Shown in pieces: positions 2,214-13,363 of a stretch of 52,507 nucleotides of DNA (position 1 is its first letter; each line of letters starts with the position of its first letter). Both the position numbers and the translations under genes were made by a program. The stretch is taken from IMG/VR virus record IMGVR_UViG_3300028388_005074, positions 1 through 52,507 of that record; one strand, 5' to 3'. The DNA is from a virus. The notes under the pieces are model-generated. The model was given only the letters and a program-made list of their open reading frames with translations, was not told the origin of the DNA and made no database searches.

Positions 2214-3095
2214 ATGGATTTTAAATCGCTTAAGCGTAATCGCACTGACCTTAGCAAGCTAGTAGAAGATGCAAAGCAAGCAGCAGGTCAGCAAGGTGGG
2301 CCGCGGGAAGACGATCGCTTCTGGCAGCCAACTCGTGGAAAAGATGGTAACGGATATGCCGTCATCCGCTTCCTCCCAGGCAAAGAAGACAACGGAACGC
2401 CGTGGATCCGCTATTGGGATCATGCGTTCAAAGGCCCGACCGGACAGTGGTACATTGAAAAGTCACTGACTTCTATTGGTCAGCCTGACCCCGTCAGCGA
2501 ATTGAACAGCAAAGACTGGAACAGTGGAATCGAGTCTATGAAGGCTGTTGTTCGCCAGCGCAAGCGCAATCTGCGCTACATTGCTAATATTCTTGTTCTT
2601 CACGATCCCGCAAATCCGGAAAACGATGGCCAGGTCAAGCTATATCGCTTTGGCAAGAAGATTTTTGACAAGATCACTCTTGCAATGCAGCCAGAGTTTC
2701 CTGATGAGGATCCAATTAACCCATTTGATATGTGGGAAGGCGCGGACTTTGTTCTAAAGATTCGCCAGGTAGAGGGATATCCCAACTACGACACTTCTAC
2801 GTTCAAGTCAGCTTCTCCTCTGAAGGGTGGTGATGACGCTGAGCTGGAAGAGATCTTCAACAAGCAGCATTCAATGGCCGAATGGGTCGATCCTGCAAAC
2901 TACAAGAGCTACGATGAGCTAAAGTCTCGTCTGCAGATTGTTCTTGGGGAGAGTGCTCCGCGGACTGTCAGAGAAGAAGTCTCGCTGGATCAGCAGGAGG
3001 CCCCTCGCGAGATGCCTACCGCAGAGAACACGTCGTTGGATGATGATCCAGATGATACGATGAGTTACTTTGCCAAACTGGCCAACGAAGATTGA
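2214..3095 (+). CDS. 32: Single-stranded DNA-binding protein gp32
   Basis: A 293-residue protein that coats ssDNA during replication, recombination and repair. The N-terminal LKRNRTDLSKLVED corresponds to the T4 gp32 cooperativity region (basic residues followed by Ser/Thr). The OB-fold core includes YAVIRFLPGKEDNGTPWIRY and RNLRYIANILVLHDP. The C-terminal tail (DDDPDDTMSYFAKLANED) is acidic, as expected for the partner-binding tail. The T4 zinc site (one His, three Cys) is absent: the protein contains no Cys at all. GGAG at 2202-2205 is the ribosome site; a weak host-type promoter (TTGATT, 17 bases, CATTAT) lies at 2135-2163. A terminator follows directly. Confidence 0.93.
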   Translation: MDFKSLKRNRTDLSKLVEDAKQAAGQQGGPREDDRFWQPTRGKDGNGYAVIRFLPGKEDNGTPWIRYWDHAFKGPTGQWYIEKSLTSIGQPDPVSELNSKDWNSGIESMKAVVRQRKRNLRYIANILVLHDPANPENDGQVKLYRFGKKIFDKITLAMQPEFPDEDPINPFDMWEGADFVLKIRQVEGYPNYDTSTFKSASPLKGGDDAELEEIFNKQHSMAEWVDPANYKSYDELKSRLQIVLGESAPRTVREEVSLDQQEAPREMPTAENTSLDDDPDDTMSYFAKLANED

Positions 3096-3098
3096 TAG

Positions 3099-3123
3099 AA
3101 AGCCCCGAGAGGGGCTTTTTTTT
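3099..3123 (+). terminator. Rho-independent terminator after gene 32
   Basis: AAAGCCCC, loop GAGA, GGGGCTTT, then a run of eight T (3116-3123). It stops the gp32 transcript. The T-run overlaps the stop codon of the convergent minus-strand tape-measure gene, so the site separates the two converging units, but the opposite orientation lacks a good T-tract. Confidence 0.9.
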
Positions 3124-4855
3124 ATCTACCCCATTGATACTGTATGCCATTTCCGCGCGCCATGTGCTTGTCGTATGTCTCGACGGGCATTGTAATCATT
3201 GTTGTTCCACCTCCACTAGGAGCTAGTGCTGGGGTCGGAGCAGAAGGAACATTGTTGACGACAATTGTTTGAGTAAACGCTCTTTGTATTTGTTCTAGAG
3301 CTTCTACACTGCGTTGTAGGGCGGCTGCAGTTTCTGACTGCAGCTTTTCTATTGCCGCACCAGTCTCCTGGTTTCGTGCTTCTATTTGAGCTCTTGTTGT
3401 TTGTATTGTTTTTTGATCACCGATTCCGATTTCGAACGGTGGTATTATTTCGTGTTCACCGCCACCCAACCATTTTGGTTTAGGAACTGTAATTTGCGGA
3501 AAGCTAAACCTAAAGTTTTCAGCTAATAACAAATACAATTGATCAGGAATGTTTTGGAATTTGCTAATTAAAAACTCAAATGATATTTTAAAATCGTTGA
3601 TTAACTTTGTTGCATAATAATCTAAATTAGCAGCTATGAGATCTTTAATTGACATGAATCCTGTCACTACGGATGAGATCATTCCCACGGCGCCATCTTT
3701 TACCGCGACTAATCTATTTGATATGTTTTCGAATCCTCCGAGGACAACATCAGAGATTCCTTTCATTACAGCGTCCGCGTCTAGATTGGCAAAAGTTTTC
3801 GACAAACTATCTTTTATTGCTGTAAATTTTGCAGGGATCTCGGCGGTTAGAAAATCTGTAAATGCTGTCCACTTATCCGACAAAAATGTTGTAAAATTAT
3901 CCCAAGCTCCTGTAATCATCGAAGTTAGTTGTGGAAACTTTTCTCCGATTGATGTTAACATTCCCCCCATTACAGACTGTATTCCGTCTGACGTCTCAAA
4001 GAACTTACGCTCATACCAACCCATAAACGTTCCATCTTCACCAAAATTTATACCGAACATATTAAAGATTCCGGTAATTGCACCATCAAAGATTGTTCGA
4101 ACTCCATTCATTAAACCAAACAATATTGTTTCCATCCCGCCAACAAAATCGCCGTCGATGAACTTTGAAAGCCCTGATATTACCCCTCCCACTGCAGTAG
4201 CAAGGCCCTCTATAGTGCGGCCAAGAAACCCTTGAATCGCAGCAACTGTATTATTCCAGCCTTCAACTATTCCAGCTATTGCGACACTCATCGTGTTTGT
4301 GTCGAGCAACCCATCAAACCAAGATGCTAGCTTTGTCCATGCTGGAACAATTGTTTCATTCCATGTTTTTCTTATCGACTCTACAGATTGCTGCACAGCT
4401 GGGTTTTGGTGAATGTCACGTAGTACATCAAACGCAAGGAACAGGCCGCCGAGCAGCAAGCCCCCACCTGCCATACGAGACACCCACTTTATTAATCCCC
4501 CAAACGGTAGTAAGTATTTCGTAACACTAGCTAACATTCCTGCCAGCCCTCCAATCGCTTTTGTAACTGGCGCAATAAACCGGCCGACATCGACAACATA
4601 TCGACTGAGAAATCCAGCCTGTTCAGTTACTTCGCGTTTAGATGAACCAACACCGTCTGAGATCAAAGAGCCATCAGCGCCTCGAATACGATTGCGTTGT
4701 TCAATCTTGTCTTCCAGCCCCCTAAGACCTTCACCTTGTTGCGTTACAAACCAATCACTAAACGATTGCCGAATCTGATCGAGAATCGTATTAGTTTCTT
4801 TTTGCTGATCGCTGTTTTCAGCTAATTGCTTTGAAATGTCGGCAAGAGTTGACAT
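3122..4855 (-). CDS. 29: Tail tape measure protein (gp29-like)
   Basis: A 577-residue protein, close to T4 gp29 (590), that would set tail-tube length and occupy the tube lumen. The N-terminal 90 residues are coiled-coil-like (QLAENSDQQKETNTILDQIRQ). Residues about 92-144 hold two strongly hydrophobic segments (GGLAGMLASVTKYLLPFGG and GGLLLGGLFLAFDVL), as usual for tape measures. The rest is long helical, amphipathic sequence, and the C-terminal end has coiled coil (ETGAAIEKLQSETAAALQRS). At about 1.5 A per residue it predicts a tail near 87 nm. GAGGA lies nine bases before the ATG, inside the 3' end of the gp51-like frame. Its place after gp26/gp51 supports the assignment. Confidence 0.8.
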   Translation of the reverse strand: MSTLADISKQLAENSDQQKETNTILDQIRQSFSDWFVTQQGEGLRGLEDKIEQRNRIRGADGSLISDGVGSSKREVTEQAGFLSRYVVDVGRFIAPVTKAIGGLAGMLASVTKYLLPFGGLIKWVSRMAGGGLLLGGLFLAFDVLRDIHQNPAVQQSVESIRKTWNETIVPAWTKLASWFDGLLDTNTMSVAIAGIVEGWNNTVAAIQGFLGRTIEGLATAVGGVISGLSKFIDGDFVGGMETILFGLMNGVRTIFDGAITGIFNMFGINFGEDGTFMGWYERKFFETSDGIQSVMGGMLTSIGEKFPQLTSMITGAWDNFTTFLSDKWTAFTDFLTAEIPAKFTAIKDSLSKTFANLDADAVMKGISDVVLGGFENISNRLVAVKDGAVGMISSVVTGFMSIKDLIAANLDYYATKLINDFKISFEFLISKFQNIPDQLYLLLAENFRFSFPQITVPKPKWLGGGEHEIIPPFEIGIGDQKTIQTTRAQIEARNQETGAAIEKLQSETAAALQRSVEALEQIQRAFTQTIVVNNVPSAPTPALAPSGGGTTMITMPVETYDKHMARGNGIQYQWGR

Positions 4856-4856
4856 T

Positions 4857-5045
4857 TTATATATTCCTCTGTCGGTCGATTGCTTCTTCTTTGCGTTTTA
4901 TATAATCTTTTAGTAGCGTAATGTAAACTTCTCTTTCCCACGGTAGCATATTCTCTATCTCATGCAATGACAAATTAAAATCAATCATTAATGTAAAGTT
5001 AGTTTGATAATAATTAACTAAATCTTCATGAGATAGAGCAATTAG
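4857..5045 (-). CDS. 51: gp51-like segment, probably the -1 frameshift extension of gp26
   Basis: This frame is open from the end of gene 26 to TAA at 4857-4859, 62 codons, one base before the tape-measure ATG. It encodes HEDLVNYYQTNFTLMID, LSLHEIENMLPWEREVYITL and LKDYIKRKEEA. The 'sl.EIE.M.PWER.iYi.LL..yi' pattern is what I remember for the small gp51-type hub-assembly proteins of T4-like phages, and it resembles the second domain of frameshifted tail assembly chaperones. There is no ATG, GTG or TTG start near its beginning. The first ATG (4988) would give only 43 residues and has no ribosome site. Expression is therefore most simply explained by a -1 frameshift from gene 26 (235 + 62 = 297 residues). 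Confidence 0.75.
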   Translation of the reverse strand, partial: LIALSHEDLVNYYQTNFTLMIDFNLSLHEIENMLPWEREVYITLLKDYIKRKEEAIDRQRNI

Positions 5046-5051
5046 AAAAAA
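4953..5051 (-). promoter_or_regulatory. Predicted programmed -1 ribosomal frameshift signal (gene 26 to 51)
   Basis: On the minus strand the slippery heptamer T TTT TTC lies at 5051-5045, followed immediately by the gene 26 stop TAA (5044-5042). Six bases after the heptamer begins CTCTATCTCATG (5038-5027), which is perfectly complementary to CATGAGATAGAG (4964-4953): a 12-bp stem with a 62-base loop large enough for a pseudoknot. Slippage of both tRNA-Phe by one base re-pairs TTT and TTT and continues CTA ATT GCT into the gp51-like frame. Heptamer type, spacer length and stem are all those of known -1 sites. Confidence 0.8.
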
Positions 5052-5749
5052 TCGTTGATTCCTTCCAATACAACGTCAAAATGATGGTTGCACGAACCAC
5101 AAGTCACATCAACCTTATGTGTTAGTTTGGGGATGTTATCAATATAATCACGGATCTTTGCGAATTGGTCTCTTGTTAATGCTTCAAGAAAGTTAACGAT
5201 TTCCGCACGTGGCTCATCAGCAAAGTTAATGACCTCGTCGTCGGTCATTAAGCAATCCATACATTGAATAATCATATCAAAAGTCATGTTGGTAATTGAC
5301 TCTTGTTTAGTAACGAGTCCAGATATAATATTGTAGGATGGCCATTTCATTTTGAGAATGATTTTGTCTGTCAATGGTATTTTGTTTGTATGGCCATCAG
5401 GAACTGAAACTGTTATATCGTCTAAATTAACAGTAAACTGAACAGAATCAGAGCAGTTAGGACACTTAGTCGAAACAGTTGCTTTCTCTCCAACTGATTT
5501 AGATCTAATTTGTAAAAACAAATACTCAACATCAAATGTGGTTAGGTCTTTGACGTTTAATTCATCAAAGACGCACGATTTTATTGTATCCGTGACAGCA
5601 TTTAATATTTGAGATTGATCTTGACTCTCAAACGCCAGCATTAGCAATTTTTCTTCTTTGACCAAGTAAGGTCTGTACATCACTTGCTGTTGCGTTGATG
5701 GGATTGTAATCTTGTACTTTGGGACTTCATTTATTTTTGGTAAAGCCAT
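5042..5749 (-). CDS. 26: Baseplate hub assembly protein gp26-like / tail assembly chaperone
   Basis: A 235-residue protein of the T4 gp26 baseplate type: an N-terminal PSTQQQVMYRPYLVKEEKLL segment and a helical middle. It has two Cys pairs, C96/C99 (KCPNCSDSV) and C217/C220 (TCGSCNHHF), that look like a zinc ribbon split between the centre and the C-terminus. In T4, gp26 acts in hub formation with gp51, 27, 28 and 29. Here it ends in TTT TTC TAA at a predicted -1 frameshift site, and the extended product would carry the gp51-like segment. It begins ten bases after the gp54-like gene and lies just before the tape measure. Confidence 0.85.
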   Translation of the reverse strand: MALPKINEVPKYKITIPSTQQQVMYRPYLVKEEKLLMLAFESQDQSQILNAVTDTIKSCVFDELNVKDLTTFDVEYLFLQIRSKSVGEKATVSTKCPNCSDSVQFTVNLDDITVSVPDGHTNKIPLTDKIILKMKWPSYNIISGLVTKQESITNMTFDMIIQCMDCLMTDDEVINFADEPRAEIVNFLEALTRDQFAKIRDYIDNIPKLTHKVDVTCGSCNHHFDVVLEGINDFF

Positions 5750-5759
5750 TATCTATATC

Positions 5760-6476
5760 CTATTTGGTAATGTTTGTCAAAATGCTTCCTATTGCTAGGT
5801 TGGTCAAATCATTTGTTTGGGATTGTTGGTTGAAATTTGAATACCACCGAGCGTATGTTACTGACACTCGCAATTCAATAAGACCATCCAATTCATTGTT
5901 GAGCGCAATTCCCTCAACTGTTGTTGGCCACGCGTCTTCTAGTGTGCACGTGTATATTACGTTTGCGCTGGTCAAAAAATCCAAGTCAAACTCTTGCTGA
6001 GCAAAGTTGATGGGGCCTAGATTCGGAAGTCTATTAATAACAGACGTTGGGAGTCCGGCAAGAGGAAATTGCTTGTTTAATAGTGGGAACCCAAATCCCT
6101 TTCTCAATTGACTAATGGTAATCTGTTTTGCATAATCAGATTTATAACCAATTTGATAAGTTGCTGGGTTGTACGCTAATTGCTGCCATTGTTCAAAATA
6201 CCTTTTTACACCATAATCATTCAACACAAGAAACGACATTGTGACATCATCTGTCGCAGATCCATAAGCAATTTTTTCTCTTTTTGTGCCAATTTCCCTG
6301 TCGTATGATAATATTTGACGGCCAGGTAAGGTAACGTCTCTACACAGCAGATTTAATTCGGAACTTGCGGCGGCGGCGCCTGGTAGCCGCGGAAGACTAA
6401 CAGTAAATAGGTTCGGCCGCGCCACGCCGTTTTTTGCGGAAAATAAACCTTTTAATTGCTCAACACTAGCTACCAT
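5760..6476 (-). CDS. 54: Baseplate tail tube initiator gp54-like (tube-fold protein)
   Basis: A 238-residue protein with the tube-protein fold signatures NGVARPNLFTVSLPRLPG and LLCRDVTLPGRQI, which closely parallel the tail tube protein at 46516 (ARPNLFKVTINFP, LCETAQLPG). It continues with MSFLVLNDYGVKRYFEQWQQ (as in T4 gp54 'isFr.d..c..y.am..W') and ends with VSVTYARWYSNF. A second tube-like protein encoded beside hub genes is expected to be gp54, the factor on which tube polymerisation starts. It overlaps the preceding gene by 11 bases. A gp19 paralogue of another role is possible but less likely. Confidence 0.72.
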   Translation of the reverse strand: MVASVEQLKGLFSAKNGVARPNLFTVSLPRLPGAAAASSELNLLCRDVTLPGRQILSYDREIGTKREKIAYGSATDDVTMSFLVLNDYGVKRYFEQWQQLAYNPATYQIGYKSDYAKQITISQLRKGFGFPLLNKQFPLAGLPTSVINRLPNLGPINFAQQEFDLDFLTSANVIYTCTLEDAWPTTVEGIALNNELDGLIELRVSVTYARWYSNFNQQSQTNDLTNLAIGSILTNITK

Positions 6477-7122: not shown

Positions 7123-7263
7123 GTGGTGGGCTGCAATACTATTGTTTTGGCCGAGCCTTTAGTGGTTTTAGCTTTGGTAGTGCTTTTGCTGTTTTTGGCA
7201 GGATACCGAGTTGCTGTAAGTGCTTTTCGGTCCAGATTTGAAATATCCATCCCTTCTTCTTAG
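7123..7263 (+). CDS. Candidate small membrane protein antisense to gene 4 (doubtful)
   Basis: A 46-residue frame starting at GTG 7123, nine bases after AAGGAG and directly downstream of the consensus promoter at 7079-7106. The product would have one hydrophobic stretch (EPLVVLALVVLLLFLAGYR) followed by a basic tail. Against it: the strand opposite a Lys/Pro-rich coding segment, as here at the gene 4 3' end, naturally reads as Leu/Phe/Val-rich, so the membrane helix may be an accident. The promoter plus ribosome site make it worth listing. Alternatively the transcript is an untranslated antisense RNA. Confidence 0.25.
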   Translation: MVGCNTIVLAEPLVVLALVVLLLFLAGYRVAVSAFRSRFEISIPSS

Positions 7264-7630
7264 CGTATTTATCTGCAGCTTTCCACTTATTTTGGTTCTT
7301 GATGTAAGTAAGAGATTCAGCAATATACCGCTTAGATTTGTTTGGGTTAGTCGGAGGGATTGTTTCTTTTTCTGGTTTTACTTCTATCATATATGTTTTG
7401 CCAGATCGATCTGTGAATACAAGATCAACAAAATATCTGTGGTATTTTTTATCTACTTCATACAGATATGGGACAATCGTTTCCTCACTTGACCACGACG
7501 TTACTGATGGGTTGTTGTCCAGCCACACAAAACAATGCCGTTCCCATAACGACCTGTATATTACGTTGTCGGGATTGCCCCTATACTTCGATCGATTTTT
7601 TACTTTATACTTGCCACTGTAAGTAGGCAC
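7139..7630 (-). CDS. 4: Head completion nuclease gp4
   Basis: A 163-residue protein of the T4 gp4 (head completion, also called gp50/gp4) family, which is needed to stabilise DNA-filled heads before tail joining. It has a PD-(D/E)xK nuclease core: E30 in YRSLWERH, D69 in HRYFVDLVF and E83-V-K85 in TYMIEVKPEKE, in the right order and spacing for a TnsA-like fold. The start is GTG at 7630-7628 with a GGGGGA-type ribosome site just upstream. The C-terminus is rich in Lys and Pro (KALPKLKPLKARPKQ). It is divergent from the gp48 operon across a 55-base promoter gap. Confidence 0.9.
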   Translation of the reverse strand: MPTYSGKYKVKNRSKYRGNPDNVIYRSLWERHCFVWLDNNPSVTSWSSEETIVPYLYEVDKKYHRYFVDLVFTDRSGKTYMIEVKPEKETIPPTNPNKSKRYIAESLTYIKNQNKWKAADKYAKKKGWIFQIWTEKHLQQLGILPKTAKALPKLKPLKARPKQ

Positions 7631-10859: not shown

Positions 10860-10871
10860 TATGAGGAATTG

Positions 10872-11870
10872 ATGTCAAAAACTATTACGACAGATTTTTA
10901 TGGCGACATTACCAGATGGTTTATTGCTGAAGTTGTTGACAACGCAAACGACCCATTTAAACCGCCGCTAGGCCGTGTACGGATCCGCATTATTGGGCTT
11001 CACAACGCTGCCGTTGACGCCGGCGATTTGCCGTGGGCATCCGTTATGCTTCCGACAACCGAGGGTGGTGTTATGTCTGGGTTCCCGCCAAACCTCGAAA
11101 ACGGCGCGCAGGTATTTGGCATTTTTTTGGATGGTATTAACTCTCAAATGCCGTTGGTATTAGGATCAATTCCTCATAAAGTTGTTGATGGTTTTATAGA
11201 AGCGCAGACAACAGGGCAGGGCTATTCCGGAAACAATTCTCAACAGAGTACAAGAACCGGCGCGCAATTTTCAACCAACCCGGGTGATTATGGCGGGGCA
11301 TTGGAACCGATTCCTACCTCATCTGCAGCTGCAGAACAATGCTATAATTATTTTACGAGTTTAGGCCCAGAATGGACAGATGCTGTCGCTAAAGGAATTA
11401 TTGGCAATATAATTGTAGAATCAGGTAATTTTGATGAACGCATAGTTAGCTTGTCAAGTGGCGGTGACCTTGACGGTAATAGCTATGGAATTTGTCAGTG
11501 GAGAGCCAGCCGAGTGACTGGGCCGGACGGATTATTATCTTTTGCAAAAAGAAATGGAATACAACCTGGCAATTTAAGCACCCAGCTGCAGTTTATTAAG
11601 TACGAGCTCGATACCTTTGCTTATCTTGGAAAGGCAGGGCTATTTAAGTGCACAACACCAGCACAAGCAGCTGTTCAATTTATGAGAAAATTTGAGATCC
11701 CAGCTGAGCTACCGGATAGTAAAGGAGGAGGCACGAGCCGTTTTCCCGAGCCGCCATATTCAGCCAGCAGCGTATATCCTAGAAAAAAATACGGTGAAGA
11801 AGAAAGAATTGCTTACGCTGAAGGATTGCCTTACAGCGGAACATATTACAACTTGAGTGACCAATCATGA
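10872..11870 (+). CDS. 5: gp5-like hub: OB domain fused to tail lysozyme (Phage_lysozyme2 type)
   Basis: A 332-residue protein starting at ATG 10872. I prefer this to TTG 10869, which is too close to the GAGGA site. Residues about 5-115 are the gp5/VgrG OB domain (GRVRIRIIGLHN, DLPWASVMLP, FGIFLDGINSQMPLVLGSIP). After a linker, residues about 150-330 resemble the Phage_lysozyme2 tail-lysin family: GIIGNIIVESGNFDE with likely catalytic E183, SYGICQWRASR, and STQLQFIKYELD. T4 gp5 instead carries a GH24-type lysozyme and a C-terminal beta-helix. Here the helix is encoded separately at 13360. It would cut peptidoglycan during tail penetration. Confidence 0.85.
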   Translation: MSKTITTDFYGDITRWFIAEVVDNANDPFKPPLGRVRIRIIGLHNAAVDAGDLPWASVMLPTTEGGVMSGFPPNLENGAQVFGIFLDGINSQMPLVLGSIPHKVVDGFIEAQTTGQGYSGNNSQQSTRTGAQFSTNPGDYGGALEPIPTSSAAAEQCYNYFTSLGPEWTDAVAKGIIGNIIVESGNFDERIVSLSSGGDLDGNSYGICQWRASRVTGPDGLLSFAKRNGIQPGNLSTQLQFIKYELDTFAYLGKAGLFKCTTPAQAAVQFMRKFEIPAELPDSKGGGTSRFPEPPYSASSVYPRKKYGEEERIAYAEGLPYSGTYYNLSDQS

Positions 11871-13363
11871 CCGACTTAAGAAACATTAACGCAGAACTTC
11901 AAAACATTGCAGATAGATTTGATTTTAACGCAGTTGCTGAAAAAACATTTGAAGCTCAGCAAAAATTAACAGCGGCGGTATCAACAAATTTGGGGAAAAA
12001 CGTCAACGAAGTTATTAATGGCTTTCAGTCGTTGACACAAGAAATTGACGACACTATTGAAGACGCTCCTGCTGTGATTAACAGGGGAATCGCTATGCTG
12101 GTGGACGACCCCGGTGGTATCGATATTCGCAGTAAATTAACGTCGGCGGCGGGCGATTTGCAGAAGCTAACTGAGACAGCTGTTGGCGGTGGAATGCTAA
12201 AACTTGCGATATCTGCTGCTACACCTGAAGCATTATCAAAAACACTAAATGCGGTTTCGGCAGCTCCACTAAACAAAATTACCGACGCCGTCAAACAAAC
12301 AATGCCAGCAATTCCTAATGTTACAGATAAAATAGGCACCGTATTAAACGAAATTGAACGCGGACTATCTATTACAGAAGACTTAACAAAACAACTTAAT
12401 TCTTTTCAAACCCAACTTTCTGGAGCTTTAAATGAAGGGCTACAAGGAGTTGTTAATAATGTAGTTGAGAAAGTGACTGGCGACTATTTAGAAACAATTA
12501 CCGGAATTACTGCCGGCCAGCTGTTGCCTGACGCTCTTGAAACTCAAGTAAAGGCTTTTGTTCAAAACAAACAACTTTCCGAGGCTGCAACAATTCTTCA
12601 ATCGTTTTCTAATCTATCCACAACAGCAATTACCACAACGTTAGGCGCGATCCCAACGTCGTTATCTCAATTGCTGTCAGCTAATTTGCCACTATTAACT
12701 CAACCAATTAAAACAATTACTACCAACCAACCAACCAATCCAATTGTTGCTAATGAAACATACGTAGGATCTGAGCTAGAAGTTCAAGCTATATTATCGG
12801 CGGCCCAGCGAGATATAACAACCGTGGTCGTTGGATCTACAAAAACGCATGTCGATCAAGACGTAAAGGCAAATGATGCTCCTCAATGGCATTTTTTGAT
12901 TACTCGAAGTGGTGATTTGCAGCCTGTTGTTCCAATAGACCAACTTGGTAGCTATACTGCCAATTGGAACACAAACACTGTTGGAATAGCATTTGCTGGA
13001 GGAACTGGCGTAACTGCTAAAGAAGCCGCCGGCACTGATGTAGAATCTTTAGTAACATCAAGAGACTATACGAGAAAACAATGGAATACATTTGACATTT
13101 TTATGAAAACATTCTTTGCAGTATATCCATATGGGCAAGTTGTTGGCGTAAAAGATGTAGACGAAACAACCGGGTCTCCGGCATTTGATGTTCGCCAATA
13201 TGTAAAGGCGCGTTTTGGCAAAACAACAATTGTTGATGTTAATAACTCACCACCATCAATTGAACAATTGAGGTCTCTGATGGAAATTGTTGCAGCTGGA
13301 TTCTCCGCTATTCCTGATATTGAAGATGAACCTGTTGAAATACGAAGGGCAATCCCACAATGA
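11867..13363 (+). CDS. Hub-associated protein with degenerate N-acetylmuramoyl-L-alanine amidase fold
   Basis: A 498-residue protein that overlaps its neighbours by ATGA on both sides. Residues 1-300 are mostly helical (ELQNIADRFDFNAVAEKTFE, VNEVINGFQSLTQEIDDTIED). Residues about 310-460 follow the T7-lysozyme/Amidase_2 pattern: ITTVVVGST, APQWHFLITRSGDLQPVVP, WNTNTVGIAFAGG and VVGVKDVDETTGSPAFDV. The zinc ligands appear lost: the 'VH(C/H)' His is replaced by V322/G323, the 'GHxD' His by V428, and the '(C/D)PgFDv' Cys/Asp by S437. I infer a structural or glycan-binding role rather than catalysis. The fold call is by motif only. Confidence 0.65.
   Translation: MTDLRNINAELQNIADRFDFNAVAEKTFEAQQKLTAAVSTNLGKNVNEVINGFQSLTQEIDDTIEDAPAVINRGIAMLVDDPGGIDIRSKLTSAAGDLQKLTETAVGGGMLKLAISAATPEALSKTLNAVSAAPLNKITDAVKQTMPAIPNVTDKIGTVLNEIERGLSITEDLTKQLNSFQTQLSGALNEGLQGVVNNVVEKVTGDYLETITGITAGQLLPDALETQVKAFVQNKQLSEAATILQSFSNLSTTAITTTLGAIPTSLSQLLSANLPLLTQPIKTITTNQPTNPIVANETYVGSELEVQAILSAAQRDITTVVVGSTKTHVDQDVKANDAPQWHFLITRSGDLQPVVPIDQLGSYTANWNTNTVGIAFAGGTGVTAKEAAGTDVESLVTSRDYTRKQWNTFDIFMKTFFAVYPYGQVVGVKDVDETTGSPAFDVRQYVKARFGKTTIVDVNNSPPSIEQLRSLMEIVAAGFSAIPDIEDEPVEIRRAIPQ

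Follow-up and report, generated by a model that had tools for sequence, protein, structure and literature searches.

The window, that is, the whole stretch of DNA analysed, is an IMG/VR record of 52.5 kb from a T4-type phage, a virus of bacteria. Four coding regions follow one another on its minus strand in the order tube-26-51-tape measure, as in a G/GT-type tail assembly chaperone (TAC) locus, with the following features:

5760 to 6476, minus strand: tail tube protein gene, upstream of gene 26 (phrog_45, E = 1.6e-27)
5042 to 5749, minus strand: gene 26, putative short tail assembly chaperone (TAC-N), 235 aa, 0 frame
5060 to 5066, minus strand: Shine-Dalgarno-like GGAAGGA, 8 nt upstream of the heptamer, tentative candidate stimulator
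5045 to 5051, minus strand: slippery heptamer T_TTT_TTC, 0-frame codons TTT TTC
5042 to 5044, minus strand: 0-frame stop TAA, immediately 3' of the heptamer
5027 to 5038, minus strand: 5' arm of the stem, CTCTATCTCATG, starting 6 nt after the heptamer
4953 to 4964, minus strand: 3' arm of the stem, CATGAGATAGAG, register 99
4931 to 4942, minus strand: putative alternative 3' arm, CGTGGGAAAGAG, register 121 (that of most relatives), of which the window can form 11 of 12 pairs
4857 to 5051, minus strand: -1-frame extension, the "gene 51" domain (TAC-C), FF plus 62 codons, stop at 4859-4857
3122 to 4855, minus strand: tape measure protein gene, 577 aa (PHROG tape measure matches, E 1e-10 to 1e-11)

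Gene 26 matched PF12322 (E = 2.4e-62) and phrog_150 (E = 3.1e-66). The -1-frame extension matched phrog_634, "baseplate hub assembly catalyst" (gp51, E = 2e-21), as well as the gene 26 family, phrog_150, at its C-terminal end. The start of the tape measure gene at 4855 lies 1 nt past the -1-frame stop. Its position before the tape measure gene, together with homology to T4 gp26 and gp51, places the locus in a well-known class of frameshifts. Elsewhere in the window, a gene for a gp32-type single-stranded DNA binding protein (2214-3095; PF08804, E 2e-44) is convergent with the tape measure gene, and a head-closure protein (7142-7630; phrog_218) also matches a TnsA-like endonuclease N-terminal domain (PF08722, E 1e-16). 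Two adjoining hub genes carry a Gp5 OB-like part with a Phage_lysozyme2 domain (10869-11870) and an Amidase_2-like domain just below the Pfam cut-off (11867-13363), possibly two cell-wall enzymes within one baseplate hub.

The AlphaFold2 model of the gene 26 product had a pLDDT of 92. Its most probable PDB match in Foldseek was the HK97 tail assembly chaperone 2ob9 (prob 0.84 and 0.72 for two chains), which over ~63-65 aligned columns was not significant by E-value (0.59-0.9), followed by an uncharacterised Bacillus protein, 3fgx (prob 0.60). By sequence, no significant PDB relative was found (best E 0.66). The model points to a TAC fold at a level that is not significant alone.

On the minus strand, the 3' end of gene 26 reads GAT TTT TTC TAA. 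The original prediction had placed the heptamer at 5051-5045 with an adjoining TAA and a six-base spacer (5044-5039), followed by a perfect 12-bp stem (5038-5027 with 4964-4953) that encloses a 62-base loop, and all of these elements proved exact to the base: CTCTATCTCATG can pair with CATGAGATAGAG at every base, and the arms are 62 nt apart. The claim that the -1 frame is open across the site and for 62 codons beyond it was likewise confirmed on the minus strand. From the heptamer this frame encodes FF and then 62 open codons, while 5' of the heptamer it is open for 8 codons only. Neither ATG, GTG nor TTG occurs in the window's -1 frame upstream of the heptamer or in the first 9 codons, and a search for an own start or Shine-Dalgarno sequence of gene 51 found none in the window and few in relatives. 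The GGAAGGA region was slightly more Shine-Dalgarno-like than synonymous resamples (145 loci, mean z -0.84).

Relatives were collected in three scans of IMG/VR and annotated phages, which yielded 208 loci with gene 26; the 145 that have the site and are non-redundant (≤85% identical over up to 400 nt) were used. A scan of viral contigs using the window protein alone gave no matches, and alignments were needed. T_TTT_TTN was present in 145/145 loci, with C (77), T (58), A (8) or G (2) as the last base. The codon 5' of TTT TTN was GAT, AGT, TCT, AAT, GCT, ACT or GGT in every locus, so that it encodes D, S, N, A, T or G and its third base is T despite free synonyms; under background codon use the chance of this is ~10^-15 (first 77 loci). 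The 0-frame stop lies 0 codons past the heptamer in 43 loci, 1 codon in 101 and 3 codons in one. Phages with the heptamer include Kyanoviridae and phages of Pelagibacter, Methylophilales, Rhizobium, Ochrobactrum, Vibrio, Cronobacter, Aeromonas, Acidovorax, Stenotrophomonas, Pseudomonas and Delftia. The only gene pairs without T_TTT_TTN were found in Salmonella phage Vi01 (Ackermannviridae; L004, ~3215-3400) and Vibrio phage D533 (L205, ~2190-2330), each with an Ackermannviridae-type gene 26 and a 51-like -1 frame behind it. In place of the heptamer D533 shows a TAATG overlap, and Vi01 has neither; thus the arrangement can exist without the T_TTT_TTN signal. Outside the 145 loci, L024 (listed a second time as L160), which the scan had missed, carries the heptamer TTTTTTC with the 0-frame stop ~nine codons later, which gives its short form a longer tail.

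Coding constraint on the second frame begins at the slip. Over 43 codons in 140 loci we counted no stops in the -1 frame versus 736 and 615 in the other frames, and differences at -1 codon positions 1, 2 and 3 were 0.38, 0.25 and 0.57 (140 loci). The -1 frame is conserved and open from the slip onward, and upstream of the heptamer it is short and unconserved. Furthermore, a -1-frame stop directly abuts TTT TTT in 30/145 loci, so that only a shift inside the heptamer can reach the extension there.

Comparison with T4, whose gp26 and gp51 were reportedly the subject of work by Vladimirov, Gautam and Davidson in 2022, bears on what the extension belongs to. T4 gp26 matched PF12322 only, and gp51 (249 aa) matched PF12322 over residues 1-201 and phrog_634 over residues 147-246; hence T4 has the short and the long form as two genes. 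The predicted 26+51 fusion of the window aligns end to end with T4 gp51, colinearly and across the junction (segment INDFFLIALSHEDLVNYYQTNFTL). Judged by this homology, the putative fusion (TAC-NC) is a real protein class, represented by T4 gp51. T4 gp26 and gp51 are homologues of TAC-N and TAC-NC, encoded by two separate genes without a heptamer, whereas in the window one locus with a frameshift would make both forms. A 26/51 frameshift in T4 itself was considered and is impossible, the two genes being on opposite strands. The window's gene 51 is not a T4-style full-length N+C gene, as it holds the C part only, in the -1 frame and with no start codon. The Phe-Phe end of T4 gene 26 reads GAG TTC TTT, with FF kept and the heptamer lost, and serves as a natural control in which Phe-Phe persists where a frameshift is not needed. 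These data suggest that the separate genes of T4 replaced the frameshift.

The 130 nt 3' of the heptamer were shuffled 5,000 times with dinucleotide content kept; none of the shuffled sequences had a perfect 12-bp arm beginning close to the heptamer, and 4 had one of 11 bp. A simple 12-bp stem alone is weak evidence, and synonymous-codon resampling, row permutation and slid registers were therefore used. Resampling of the window alone gave P = 0.006 for its stem. Across relatives, with the -1 protein fixed, the helix 4-10 nt past the heptamer exceeded synonymous resampling (mean z 2.4, n = 140); a helix score of ≥22 was reached by 37% of the 140 loci versus 1.4% in the synonymous resamples, while at two control arm positions it was reached by 1.4% of loci versus 1.5% and 0.4% in resamples. 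The row-permutation test gave an observed value of 0.805 versus a maximum of 0.799 in 2000 permutations. One set of loci, class A, had been selected in part by LSHD motif and stem, which inflates its paired percentage. The loci of the row-permutation test were picked by amino-acid motif only, and this test is free of that bias, as is the synonymous null. In addition, the predicted fold of the 110 nt past the site is more stable than that of dinucleotide shuffles (mean z -2.6, control -0.4). The 62-nt "loop" of the window is predicted to have structure of its own; for the hairpin as a whole the values are -24.5 kcal/mol and z -2.9 over 110 nt.

The 5' arm lies at one place in relatives and its 3' partner varies between lineages. 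Forty-one loci have their best helix in register 121, whose partner encodes PWERE; seven (the window, L019, L023, L029, L125, L170 and L174) have it in register 99 and ten in a local hairpin, register 42, with further registers in smaller groups; a strong simple helix is missing at the expected place in 60 loci (~43%). Constrained folds of the window gave -25.9 kcal/mol for register 99 versus -21.8 kcal/mol for register 121 (10 of 11 core pairs). For register 121 we found 32 compensatory double-change cells versus 12.7 in shuffled alignments, none of 500 of which reached that number, and slid controls gave 0 to 11. Compensatory changes in register 99 were G-C to C-G and U-A to C-G, and its covariation score was reached in 2/500 shuffles. 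On the gene 26 tree, at least 10 changes are needed among five named registers, a number of switches that is approximate because many branches are weak; the window (register 99) and L009 (register 121) group together as sisters there, with a local support of 96%. The stimulator may be a long-range stem with a fixed 5' arm, the 3' partner of which was swapped repeatedly (at ~62, 84, 9 and other distances), possibly as two competing stems that tune the chaperone ratio, a scheme that we advance tentatively and rate at somewhat below even chances. Partner turnover inside coding sequence, if true, would represent a novel form of frameshift control. Such a switching stem appears to be undescribed: no description of a conserved partner-switching stem was found in the literature searched, the coverage of which was incomplete.

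The original prediction had held that heptamer, spacer and stem follow the rules for -1 sites, which agrees with the 6-nt spacer, the helix above the synonymous null and the covariation. It had also proposed an alignment of the 26/51 junction; there, heptamer, spacer and stem are kept and covary in relatives, in support of -1 frameshifting. The contrary outcome that it had named, relatives having a gene 51 with a normal start and ribosome site and no heptamer, is not the pattern observed.

Public annotations imply a separate gene 51, whose translation would begin by termination-reinitiation at a start of its own, rare or overlapping. In the public phage records viewed, 51 is a separate, often truncated ORF or absent from the annotation, and no joined 26+51 CDS was found in the record regions viewed. 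Starts do occur in the -1 frame of some relatives, at no constant place: an ATG stands at codon 5, shortly after the stop, in 29 loci, and in 5/144 an ATG overlaps the 0-frame stop (TGATG/TAATG), where coupled separate translation would be allowed. These five (L196, L198, L199, L202 and L204, from phages of Rhizobium, Vibrio, Stenotrophomonas and Delftia) have the heptamer as well and could make free gp51 alongside the fusion. We consider a separate gene 51 very unlikely, as 75/144 loci, the window included, have no ATG, GTG or TTG in the -1 frame, either upstream or within its first 9 codons, and only 2/77 loci have a Shine-Dalgarno core before a candidate start. Moreover, the heptamer is kept at synonymous sites, the -1-frame homology starts at the heptamer and not at a start codon, and T4 carries the N+C fusion as one protein.

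An identical fusion protein would result if the polymerase, and not the ribosome, slipped on the run of 6 to 8 T and thereby produced an mRNA sub-population with 26 and 51 in one frame. Six T are, however, short for polymerase slippage, and in 77/145 loci the run consists of just six T with a C after it; the T_TTT_TTN phase is a hallmark of ribosomal slippage, as are the short spacer and the covarying stem, which makes the transcriptional route similarly improbable. Still less credible is that the heptamer reflects mere Phe-Phe conservation and the stem is a by-product of conserved LSHD and PWERE/SEIE codons. FF is indeed conserved and the arms lie within conserved amino-acid motifs, but this explanation is already contradicted by the data: the position 5' of FF, the third of a variable codon, holds T in 145/145 loci, T4 retains FF via TTC with no heptamer, the helices exceed synonymous resampling and third positions covary.

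We observed the sequence elements, a coding constraint in both frames, features that pin the shift to the heptamer, a predicted fusion homologous to T4 gp51 and a stem that covaries. A programmed -1 ribosomal frameshift at the end of gene 26 almost certainly makes both TAC-N and TAC-NC (26+51), as far as can be judged from sequence; slippage in vivo, the slip rate and the chaperone function are what we infer from it. Ribosomes translating gene 26 would meet T TTT TTC beside the stop codon, and the RNA stem, with its 5' arm 6 nt downstream, would make a minority of them slip back one base, possibly assisted by the upstream Shine-Dalgarno-like GGAAGGA. Most ribosomes would stop and release the short chaperone TAC-N (gp26, 235 aa), and those that slipped would continue in the -1 frame to yield TAC-NC, a gp26-gp51 fusion of 297 aa. 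As lambda G/GT do, both forms would recruit tail-tube subunits and coat the tape measure protein, the product of the next gene. Frameshifting at this locus implies that many public phage records mis-annotate it as two genes or omit the second. Related sites with differing stems would also offer a natural series for RNA structure setting a protein ratio and perhaps tail length.

The scheme is the same as in lambda G/GT and P2 E/E+E', where a short protein and a longer -1 frameshifted one are encoded between the tail tube or major tail gene and the tape measure gene. The P2 E/E+E' heptamer is T-rich. Work on these two tail assembly chaperone frameshifts reportedly goes back to Levin in 1993, Christie in 2002 and Xu in 2004. 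The locus studied here differs from lambda and P2 in its stop 0-1 codon past the heptamer and its covarying downstream stem. The lambda G/GT frameshift is summarised in PMC5009743.

The frameshift may already have been described for some of these phages. The original prediction held that none is known to be described for 26/51 of T4-type phages, which stands only in part, as the site is not clearly unreported: PMC12846349 credits Vladimirov et al. 2022 with poly-T slip signals in TAC-N genes of T4-like phages. According to the PRFect paper (PMC10885494), which cites the same work, some T4-like phages have short and fused long chaperone genes and no frameshift. The TACs of Vandenendeviridae and Andersonviridae resemble the window in an open -1 frame after TAC-N, a poly-T slip site and a downstream ORF annotated as a separate hypothetical gene; in contrast, their site is GTTTTT, the families are different and the available text reports no downstream stem (PMC12846349). 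For cyanophages, no described frameshift at 26/51 was found in the literature searched, which covered few subscription papers. Sullivan 2010 described cyanophage and marine vibriophage gp51 without the first ~200 residues, the same ORFs as here, and the available part of that paper gives no explanation (PMC3037559). The missing ~200 residues would be encoded by gene 26 and joined by the frameshift, hence the short cyanophage "gp51", and the published puzzle of a "gp51" of ~a fifth of T4's length in cyanophages and marine vibriophages, as stated in that part of the paper (PMC3037559), would thereby be explained.
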